From NCBI GenBank assembly GCA_026989375.1, contig JALSJJ010000081.1, positions 35,001 to 76,640 of the forward strand: a DNA stretch of 41,640 bases. Direction: 5' to 3'. The translations under genes were made by a program, and so were the position numbers. Below the pieces are notes generated by a model that saw only the letters and a list, made by a program, of their open reading frames with translations, was not told the DNA's origin and did not search any database. The stretch is from Rhodothermus sp. (GTDB lineage: Bacteria > Bacteroidota > Rhodothermia > Rhodothermales > Rhodothermaceae). Shown here in pieces: positions 2,134 through 10,780 of this stretch (position 1 is its first letter; every line of letters begins with the position of its first letter).

Positions 2134-2147
2134 TTGATTAGTATTAA
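2134..2147 (+). promoter_or_regulatory. CRP/FNR-family-like box TTGAT-TAGT-ATTAA
   Basis: 9 of 10 match to TTGATnnnnATCAA, ending 47 bp upstream of the ATG at 2194. Confidence 0.45.
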
Positions 2148-2891: not shown

Positions 2892-4604
2892 ATGGCTGGC
2901 CTGTTACTTTCGGGAACCTATGATGCTGAAGGCTTCCGGACGTGCTCGGTCACGGGCCTTCGCATTCACCGGGACGTGGAGCGCTACGTGAAGCTGTTTG
3001 CCCTAACGGCTGTCGTGGCGCTGTTGATTGGCGGCATCTCGGCCATCTTTGTGGCGCTCACGCGCTGGGAGGTGATCGGTCTGGCCGACCCACCGGCCTT
3101 TTACAAGTGGCTTAGCATCCATGCCTGGAATCTGTTGATTTTCTGGATGGTCTTCATGGAGGTGGCTATCCTGTACATTGGCGGGCCTTTGGTGCTGGGT
3201 CGGCCACTTCCAACGCCCAAGCTGGCCGGTATTGGCTACTTGCTCATGTTGGTAGCGGCGCTGATGATCAATCATGCCATTGCCACCACCGAAGCCCCCG
3301 ACAGCGCGCCGCTGCTAACCTCTTACGCCCCGCTGCCCTCACCGCCCCTGTTTTATCTCGGGGTGATTCTGTTTATCCTGGGCGTTATCATTGCGGCGCT
3401 GCCCTTTTTTATCACGATCTGGCAGGAGAAGCAGGAATATCCCCATCGGACGCTTCCGCTGGTCAGCTTCGGAGCGTTCATTACGTCAATTATCGCACTG
3501 GAAGCTCTGCTTGGTGGGTTGATCACCTATATTCCCACCTTCCTCTGGCGCATCGGGGTCGTGGAGCACATTGATGCGGCCTGGTACCGACAGATGTACT
3601 GGATTATCGGTCATGGAAGCCAGCAGATTAATCTGGCGGCCATGATCACGGTCTGGTACTTCCTGACGCACGTCGTGGGCGGCGCCGAGGTGGTCAGCGA
3701 GAAGCTATCGCGGACGGCTTTTATTCTGTATCTGTTCTTCATCAACATGGGCGCTGCTCATCATCTGCTGGCCGATCCGGGCGTCCACATGAGCTGGAAG
3801 CACTGGAACACTTCGTATGCTGTCTATGGCGCCGTACTGGCCAGCATGATTCACGCCTTTGCCATCCCGGCCGGCCTGGAAGCGGGGCGCCGCAAGCGCG
3901 GATTCGGACGTCAGGGACTCTTTGGCTGGCTCTGGTCAGCGCCCTGGGGCAATCCGGTCTTCTCCGCCACCGTGCTGGGCATCATCATGTTTGGTTTTAT
4001 CGGCGGTATTTCGGGTGTGGTCATGGGACAAACGCAGCTAAACCTGACCTGGCACAACACGCTGGGCGTGCCCGGCCATTTCCATGGAACTGTCGTGCTG
4101 GGGACCACGCTGACCTTCATGGCGCTTGTGTACTTTGCCCTGCCGGTCCTGTTTAATCGGGATCTGGCCTTCAAGCCGCTGGCCCGCATCCAGCCCTATT
4201 TCTACGCCGTCGCTATGGGGCTGGCCACGATTATGATGATCTATCTGGGCGTGCTTTATGGCGTGCCCAGGCGGCATCCGTCGGTAATGAGCTTTCCAGG
4301 AACGGACTTCAGCTTCGCTGCGGCCTCGCCCTTGTTTGCCATCTTCGGAGTGGCGGCCATCCTGGCCCTCATCGCTGGCGCCAGCTTTCTGCTGGTGGCT
4401 GTGGGATCGCTGCTTTTCGGAAAGCGGATTGACAACCCGGCCCTCGTAATGCCCCTGTTAATTTCCGGCGGAAGCGATGACCAGCCAGTTCATACGTACT
4501 CGATGCAGGGTACGCTTACGTTAACGCTCATTTTCCTGGCTGTCTTTGCCGTCATCTACATCGTCAACTGGTACCTGCTGGGTCGTCTGTGGGCTATCGG
4601 CTAA
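2892..4604 (+). CDS. B-family heme-copper oxidoreductase subunit I; probable NO reductase (eNOR-like) because the active-site Tyr is Gln
   Basis: Multi-TM protein with HH pair (AAHHLLADPG), GHFHGTVV heme ligands and ba3-like LLTSYAPLPSPPLFYLG; GHGSQQ where ba3 oxidases have GHPIVY. Confidence 0.9.
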   Translation: MAGLLLSGTYDAEGFRTCSVTGLRIHRDVERYVKLFALTAVVALLIGGISAIFVALTRWEVIGLADPPAFYKWLSIHAWNLLIFWMVFMEVAILYIGGPLVLGRPLPTPKLAGIGYLLMLVAALMINHAIATTEAPDSAPLLTSYAPLPSPPLFYLGVILFILGVIIAALPFFITIWQEKQEYPHRTLPLVSFGAFITSIIALEALLGGLITYIPTFLWRIGVVEHIDAAWYRQMYWIIGHGSQQINLAAMITVWYFLTHVVGGAEVVSEKLSRTAFILYLFFINMGAAHHLLADPGVHMSWKHWNTSYAVYGAVLASMIHAFAIPAGLEAGRRKRGFGRQGLFGWLWSAPWGNPVFSATVLGIIMFGFIGGISGVVMGQTQLNLTWHNTLGVPGHFHGTVVLGTTLTFMALVYFALPVLFNRDLAFKPLARIQPYFYAVAMGLATIMMIYLGVLYGVPRRHPSVMSFPGTDFSFAAASPLFAIFGVAAILALIAGASFLLVAVGSLLFGKRIDNPALVMPLLISGGSDDQPVHTYSMQGTLTLTLIFLAVFAVIYIVNWYLLGRLWAIG

Positions 4605-4624: not shown

Positions 4625-5395
4625 ATGAAGGAGCAGACGCTGCGCGCTCACTTCCGTAACGGGGCGGCCGAGTCCTCGTCTATCCTGCCGGCAGGATGGC
4701 GGGGGCTCGGCCGGGGGCAGCGGCTCTGGCGCTTCATCAAAAGCATCTACTACGCCAGCAGTCCAGGCTGGCAATTACTCAAAAGCGGCGCCCTGTTCTT
4801 CTTTGGCTTTTTCTGCTGGGCGGTGGGGAACCTGCTGCGTTCGTATCTGCCCGGCATCTACTGGCCCAACCTGCTGATCAGCTACGGCGCGCTGCTTTTC
4901 TGGTTTGGGCCACTGACGCATCTGGTCTTTGTGCCCCGTCTGATTCCCTGGCTGCGTCGGCAGCGCCAGCATCGTCTCCTTCACTGGCTGGGCGGTCACT
5001 TTACCGTGGCGTTGTTTACCTTGTTTTTTACCGGGGTGGTGCTGCTCAGTCTGGATCCACCAGACTTTTTGGTGCTGGACGTTGAGGGACGCCTGCACCC
5101 CACGGCATCGGTTCAGGCCACTGCAGAACCTGCGGCACAACTGCCGGACCTGAATTGTCAGCGTACAGAGGGGCAGATCACCTGCATGCTGACGCACGTA
5201 CCGGACGCTGTCGTACGCATTGAGGTAACTTCGGGAACCCACCGGCTGCTGCAACTCGAACGACCGACCGTCTCCTTTACGCTTTTGGAACAAGATCTGG
5301 CCGAGGTGCTGGGGCAACGTGAGTTTCGCGTGACGCTCTATGACAGCCGGGGACGCCTACTACGCGAGTTTGTACGCACTACCGCGTTTCTCTAA
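4625..5395 (+). CDS. Conserved membrane protein of the heme-copper operon, several TM helices plus C-terminal soluble domain
   Basis: Starts 20 bp after subunit I, same strand; hydrophobic segments SGALFFFGFFCWAVGNLL, LLISYGALLFWFGPLTHLVF, FTVALFTLFFTGVVLL. Confidence 0.75.
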   Translation: MKEQTLRAHFRNGAAESSSILPAGWRGLGRGQRLWRFIKSIYYASSPGWQLLKSGALFFFGFFCWAVGNLLRSYLPGIYWPNLLISYGALLFWFGPLTHLVFVPRLIPWLRRQRQHRLLHWLGGHFTVALFTLFFTGVVLLSLDPPDFLVLDVEGRLHPTASVQATAEPAAQLPDLNCQRTEGQITCMLTHVPDAVVRIEVTSGTHRLLQLERPTVSFTLLEQDLAEVLGQREFRVTLYDSRGRLLREFVRTTAFL

Positions 5396-9136: not shown

Positions 9137-10780
9137 TCAGCGTATCCGTACTACCGGCTGCATGTCGGTGAACGTCTCGCCTTCAGCCTGCACCAGATAC
9201 AGGCCCGGAGCCCAGTTGCCCTGTAGGGTGAGCGGCACCGGCCGAGCCGGATCTACAAGGCCCTGGAAGACGAGCTGCACCACACGCCCCAGCAGATCCA
9301 GCAATCGCACCCGAACACGCTGCGGCCGATCTACCCGAAGCCAGAGCCGTGTCGTCGAGCGCCAGGGATGTGGCACCGGCACCGAGAGCCCCACCGGTGG
9401 TTTCTCAGGTAACGGTTCGTGATTCGTAGCGATCCCTTCTGGTCGCAGCACAAATAGCCCTTCACCGATGCTGCTGACCAGCACGATGCCGTCCGGCAGA
9501 AACGGATACACACTCCAGGCCCCGACAAATTGAACTGGATTTCCCCATGGATACGTATCGAAAAAACTGATCTCCACGGGTTGCTCCCGATTCGATATGT
9601 CCAGCACCCGAAGTCCCGCCGAATAGTTCGCCTGAAAAAGCAGGTTACCACGCACGAACAGGTTGTGATCAATGACCGACGTGCTTGCCAGGTATTCGGC
9701 CGCCAGGCGCGGTTTGTCCAGATCAGACAGGTCGAAAATCAGCGTTCGCGTGCGCGGAGGCGTCGGCTGCAAACCGTTCTGATAGGCCCGCCACCCTTGC
9801 GCTTCGTCCAGCTCATCGCCCAGATAGAAATAGCGATGCGCTTCGTCGAGCCAGCCCTGATGCGCATAGGCTACGCCTGCATAGGTGAAGGTAGCCACCT
9901 CCTGCACGTTCGTCTTGTCTGTGACATCCAGAATACCAATTCCTGTCTCATCCGCGCCGATGCAAATTTCGCGGCCCTGATAATCCGGATCAGGGCCATG
10001 ATACACCACACACTGTGCGTCGTGCGTGTAGCCTGGTCCCACACGCCCACCCAGCGGAGACTTAAAGCACCCGGCAAAGCGGGGATGCAGTGGGTCGCTC
10101 AGGTCCACTGCATGATAACCAAAGTCACAGTACGCTAGTGAATCGGGATGCTCCCCCACCCCTACCGCATAGGCAAAACCGGCCGTTTCGTTCACCACCA
10201 CGTTGTGGGCCGTGCCAAAGCCGAGATAGTGCGCCACTGGCTCCAGCAAGGCAGGGGTTCGGGTAAGCGTCCGAAGCTGTCTTAGATCAAACACCTGCAA
10301 TCCGTGCCCGGAATTATGGTCGCTTACTACCAGAGCATAGGGGCCGTAGGTTTTGATGTCGCGCCAGAGGCTTGCTTCTCCATGGGCTGTACGGTCAGGC
10401 CGTATCTTGTGCGAGTGGTCCCGCGACGGCTCAGGCAAAAACGCCACCAGACGTGGCCGCACCGGATCGGTCACCTCTACCACCGACACGCCGTTACTCA
10501 ACCCTACCAATGCATAGCGGCGGTCGGTCTCCGGATCCACCCACCCCCAGATATCGTTGGCCATGACGTCCGTTGTATCGTCCTGCGTCCAGTCGCTATC
10601 CAGCGCAGCCAGCGGCAGAAAAGCCAGCAGGGTAACCCTGTTGCAAGAAAATCCGGCCGCCTGTCCATCCACACACGCCACCGCCTGCCCTGTCACGGGT
10701 AACAGGGGACGCTGAACCGTCTGCGCCAGGGCCACGATCGGCAAAAGCCCCAAAAGTCCTATCTTTCGAGGGAGGCGCAT
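9137..10780 (-). CDS. Choice-of-anchor B-like secreted LVIVD-repeat protein with T9SS-like C-terminal sorting domain
   Basis: Signal peptide MRLPRKIGLLGLLPIVALAQ; NDIWGWVDPETDRRYALVGLSNGVSVVEVTDP; C-terminal LLDLLGRVVQLVFQG...GLYLVQAEG typical of T9SS type-A domains. Confidence 0.82.
   Translation of the reverse strand: MRLPRKIGLLGLLPIVALAQTVQRPLLPVTGQAVACVDGQAAGFSCNRVTLLAFLPLAALDSDWTQDDTTDVMANDIWGWVDPETDRRYALVGLSNGVSVVEVTDPVRPRLVAFLPEPSRDHSHKIRPDRTAHGEASLWRDIKTYGPYALVVSDHNSGHGLQVFDLRQLRTLTRTPALLEPVAHYLGFGTAHNVVVNETAGFAYAVGVGEHPDSLAYCDFGYHAVDLSDPLHPRFAGCFKSPLGGRVGPGYTHDAQCVVYHGPDPDYQGREICIGADETGIGILDVTDKTNVQEVATFTYAGVAYAHQGWLDEAHRYFYLGDELDEAQGWRAYQNGLQPTPPRTRTLIFDLSDLDKPRLAAEYLASTSVIDHNLFVRGNLLFQANYSAGLRVLDISNREQPVEISFFDTYPWGNPVQFVGAWSVYPFLPDGIVLVSSIGEGLFVLRPEGIATNHEPLPEKPPVGLSVPVPHPWRSTTRLWLRVDRPQRVRVRLLDLLGRVVQLVFQGLVDPARPVPLTLQGNWAPGLYLVQAEGETFTDMQPVVRIR

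Follow-up and report, generated by a model that had tools for sequence, protein, structure and literature searches.

A four-gene operon of Rhodothermus sp. very probably (about 93%) encodes an eNOR, a nitric oxide reductase derived from the B family of heme-copper oxidases. This assignment, made at the sequence level, is based on the phylogeny of the catalytic subunit, a diagnostic Gln, the lack of a Tyr at the position used in cbb3 enzymes, the gene being the sole HCO-type NOR detected in a genome with nirK, nirS and nosZ, and the linkage of eNOR to nirK and nirS in relatives. The operon is located in a 41,640-nucleotide stretch of contig JALSJJ010000081.1 (the window) and encodes a 52-residue protein (2194-2352), subunit II, subunit I and a membrane protein designated P0002 (4625-5395). 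The initial annotation had described subunit I as a probable NO reductase and not an oxygen reductase, which the phylogeny, the diagnostic Gln, the gene set and the nirK/nirS linkage support.

Active site of subunit I

The gene at 2892-4604 (+) translates to an intact protein of 570 amino acids, which was classified as an eNOR-type catalytic heme-copper subunit by its PF00115 match, its position in the tree and its AF2 model. Residues 240-245, encoded by nucleotides 3609-3626 (+), read GHGSQQ, as the initial annotation had it for both residues and nucleotides. This motif could be aligned without gaps to GHPIVY of Thermus thermophilus ba3 oxidase, and ba3 Tyr237 (ba3 residues carry their standard numbers) therefore corresponds to Gln245. 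Thus the CuB ligand His241 is followed by a Gln where the cross-linked Tyr would stand. The six His residues that bind the hemes and CuB are all retained (His77, His241, His290, His291, His396 and His398), which agrees with what had been noted from the sequence earlier. Chance, a sequencing error or a pseudogene can be dismissed as the origin of the Gln since it is found in 39/39 members of the clade, Tyr occurs in 21/21 B-type oxidases, and the dN/dS of the gene relative to its congeners is 0.02-0.04, indicating strong purifying selection.

The AF2 model of subunit I had a pLDDT of 83 and was most similar to ba3 oxidases, with a TM score of 0.77. Apart from the fold, the T. thermophilus ba3 oxidase shares with the window's enzyme the metal ligands, a CuA subunit II and a small helix subunit. 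It differs in carrying Tyr237 instead of Gln, in belonging to a separate clade, and in its K-path, in which Thr302, Tyr244 and Thr312 are replaced by Ala, Ile/Val and His, respectively, in the Gln-bearing clade. The K-path residues Tyr256 and Ser318 are still present in that clade, and Asn247, Tyr309, Tyr312 and His321 are clade-specific gains. eNORs are predicted to have a single proton channel. Glu90 on helix II (3159-3161) is invariant in the Gln-bearing clade and absent from the Tyr-bearing B-type oxidases; from this pattern it is a possible proton-path residue.

A different explanation would be that the protein is an oxygen reductase in which the catalytic Tyr has moved to another helix, in a cbb3-like manner, with Tyr309 or Tyr312 of helix VIII as candidates. 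The cbb3 Tyr is located on helix VII, six residues before the HH pair in CcoN. The corresponding position is Ile284 in 38 of the 39 Gln-bearing sequences and Leu in the other one, which excludes a cbb3-type (C-family) oxygen reductase with a relocated helix VII Tyr. On helix VIII, Tyr309 is present in all 39 sequences and Tyr312 in 38 (His in Thermus), and neither occurs at those positions in B-type oxidases. Both residues adjoin the aligned position of ba3 Thr302, which we count against the eNOR assignment, and alignment with B-type oxidases shows that helix VIII is remodelled by a one-residue insertion at 313. The initial annotation had raised the possibility of a Tyr reaching the CuB site from another helix; this is discarded for helix VII and partly closed for Tyr309 and Tyr312 of helix VIII. 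Against a displaced Tyr in either helix, the genome already encodes two Tyr-bearing oxidases and the linkage to nirK and nirS points to NO as the substrate, and we consider an oxygen reductase of this kind very improbable.

Family placement

A maximum-likelihood tree was calculated for 62 subunits I, including 39 Gln-bearing and 21 Tyr-bearing B-type sequences. The Gln-bearing sequences, those of Natronomonas included, formed one group with a support of 99/97, and the Tyr-bearing oxidases formed a separate group (100/100). The window's protein thus does not fall inside the canonical oxygen reductases, a placement that the initial annotation had named as evidence against its reading. Natronomonas, in which an eNOR was first described, falls inside the same eNOR subclade as the window's protein. 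In one scan of public genomes 48 loci were found that encode relatives with 58-94% identity, mainly from haloarchaea and Rhodothermota, and all 48 carry GHG[ST]QQ.

A second eNOR group, whose unity is less well supported in the same tree (82/41), comprises sequences from Balneola-like genomes, from Thermus and Thermomicrobium plasmids, and from Defluviimonas. These proteins are similar to the window's subclade in having GHxxQQ, a CuA subunit II and a small upstream ORF, and in Thermus plasmid pTF24b nirS is nearby. They differ in being only about 41-45% identical and in that no P0002 was found with them; their neighbourhoods contain genes for heme o synthase, SCO or Rrf2 instead. Upstream of two eNOR loci of this second subclade a 489-residue protein with a COX1 fold is encoded (L123:1842-3308 and L124:7583-9049). 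It has GHILQFVN in helix VI and AHYH; as it has no HH pair, two CuB ligands seem to be lost.

The residue at the Tyr position is diagnostic for these enzymes: Tyr in oxygen reductases, Glu in cNOR and qNOR, Asn in sNOR and Gln in eNOR (PMC8756737). The suggestion in the initial annotation that the Gln marks an eNOR-type NO reductase is therefore upheld by a published criterion and by its conservation throughout the clade. The window's enzyme combines this Gln with all His ligands, a CuA subunit II encoded just upstream of subunit I and grouping with Natronomonas, as expected for an eNOR. The features of a ba3 B-family oxygen reductase were not found: there is no helix VI cross-linked Tyr and the protein is not among the Tyr-bearing enzymes in the tree. 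Assignment to cNOR or qNOR was rejected because Gln245 replaces the active-site Glu and subunit II is a CuA protein rather than a cytochrome c or quinol domain; sNOR was rejected because Gln245 is not Asn. More generally, the operon might encode another Tyr-less NOR of B-family descent, since sNOR, gNOR, nNOR and bNOR are likewise related to B-family oxidases (PMC11388526) and a cupredoxin subunit II is common to sNOR, gNOR and eNOR (PMC8756737). However, the same classification lists Gln for eNOR and Asn for sNOR, and with subunit I grouping with Natronomonas, membership in one of these families is extremely improbable.

The eNOR of Rhodothermus is already known, as the initial annotation had suspected. 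Hemp and Gennis reportedly dealt with the eNOR family in 2008, and Murali et al. are said to have purified the R. marinus enzyme and found that it reduces NO (PNAS, 2024). A passage in PMC11388526 lists eNOR as biochemically characterised, citing Murali 2024, and Rhodothermus profundi is a listed eNOR member (PMC8756737), so that our main finding is not new. The core of the window's operon shows no differences from the described family.

Operon genes and P0002

The first gene of the operon (2194-2352, +) encodes a single-helix protein of 52 residues and its stop codon overlaps the start of the subunit II gene (ATGA). The protein is likely the counterpart of ba3 subunit IIa. A tblastn search located it in the corresponding position in the two eNOR subclades, and in Thermus, Thermomicrobium and Defluviimonas a hypothetical protein of 49-60 residues is annotated before subunit II. 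Subunit II (2349-2888, +; 179 residues; PF00116) consists of an N-terminal membrane anchor and a CuA cupredoxin domain. Its CuA ligands are complete (H120, C160, C164, H168 and M171), confirming the full CuA site recognized earlier, and the motif CNEFCGxGHxxM is conserved among eNOR loci.

Upstream of the operon an FNR-like palindrome, TTGATTAGTATTAA, is located at 2134-2147 (+), 47-60 nucleotides before the first start codon. The pattern TTGATNNNNATYAA has this single match in the window, with 0.06 expected, and the palindrome is identical in locus L082. It is a possible regulatory site, but no Crp-type HTH (PF00325) to which it could be assigned was detected in the window's genome. The regions upstream of nosZ, nirS and nirK yielded no FNR-like box.

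The last gene (4625-5395, +) encodes P0002, a protein of 256 residues. Its model shows three transmembrane helices followed by an FnIII/Ig-like domain at the C-terminus, in which two cysteines, Cys178 and Cys187, are invariant. Searches of Pfam, NCBIfam and PHROG assigned the protein to no family, the PDB contained no sequence match, and a PDB fold search with the model gave matches limited to the FnIII/Ig-like domain. In 45 of the 46 assessable loci of the window's subclade the P0002 gene comes after that of subunit I, either immediately or separated from it by ~1 kb; L043 is the locus that has no P0002, and L024 and L025, which end too early, were left out of the count. Among 149 genomes of the class it occurs in 7 of the 8 that carry a subclade-1 eNOR and elsewhere only as a relic, a co-occurrence with a Fisher p of about 2e-10, in which relatedness is not removed. 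The relic is present in G002, a single-contig Rhodothermus genome that carries no eNOR, where the last 115 residues (142-256) are retained at about 9315-9656 of locus L142 (G002:C1:155000-172000); it is what remains of a lost operon. The dN/dS of P0002 is 0.10-0.20, indicating that the protein is maintained. P0002 is thus a probable operon partner of the window's eNOR subclade, and the sole part of the operon for which no description was found in the literature searched. More tentatively, and at somewhat less than even odds, it may be an undescribed fourth component of the haloarchaeal and Rhodothermota eNOR that would act in enzyme assembly or electron-donor docking. If P0002 is part of the enzyme, it would be a usable marker gene for an eNOR subclade that spans bacteria and archaea.

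Denitrification genes and proposed function

The genome from which the window was taken is 96% complete and encodes three COX1 proteins: a caa3 oxidase, a Tyr-bearing ba3 oxidase (FTGHAIVY) and the window's subunit I. Searches with PF00115 and PF22085 revealed no other HCO-type NOR (cNOR or qNOR) in this genome, and no qNOR N-terminal domain. NirS, NirK (above the equivalog cut-off) and NosZ are encoded, and matches to NarG were weak, with none above the cut-off. In this genome nosZ is directly preceded by genes for an NsrR-like regulator of the Rrf2 family and for a cytochrome c (L121:1793-2260). For R. marinus, nirK, nirS and nosZ were reported together with the absence of a nor gene (Graf 2014, PMC4250227), a gap that we attribute to eNOR not being recognized. 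An eNOR also fits as the one missing step in the denitrification gene set of the window's genome. It is carried by 6 of 7 Rhodothermus genomes, the seventh being G002, in which no NirS was found.

In 19 of the 48 loci no more than about 6 kb separates nirK from eNOR, where chance would give about 0.25 loci (12 kb flank, 3.5 Mb genome), a rough estimate as many of the loci are related. On Thermus thermophilus plasmid pTF24b (L125, 6796-13668) nirS is 3.6 kb from eNOR, followed by an Rrf2-family regulator. The window's own operon has no adjoining nir gene, which we count against the eNOR assignment.

From these data we infer the substrate, electron path and physiological role of the enzyme. Electrons would enter at CuA of subunit II and move on to subunit I, first to the low-spin heme and then to the high-spin heme/CuB pair. 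At this pair two NO molecules would be joined and reduced to N2O. When oxygen reductases split O2, the cross-linked Tyr contributes a proton as well as the fourth electron; with Gln245 in its place the site would therefore be suited to the two-electron reaction with NO. In the cell the eNOR would consume NO formed by NirS and NirK and pass N2O on to NosZ.

The enzyme could also reduce both O2 and NO and serve chiefly as a protective NO scavenger under microaerobic conditions instead of in respiration. Some NO reductase activity is generally known for B-type oxidases, the genome has no NarG above the cut-off, and eNOR reduces NO in microoxic conditions (PMC11388526). Without the Tyr, however, O2 splitting should be severely impaired, and the presence of NirS, NirK and NosZ fits respiration, which makes a mainly protective role rather unlikely.

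The eNOR of the window is a clear case of a denitrification step concealed by the automated label cytochrome c oxidase. The initial annotation anticipated this label, and the eNOR of Thermus plasmid pTF24b is indeed annotated as a b(o/a)3-type cytochrome-c oxidase; the same mislabeling as cytochrome c oxidase affects the Thermus, Thermomicrobium and Defluviimonas plasmids. The eNOR family is thus published yet routinely mislabelled, and the gene in the window is an intact member of it.
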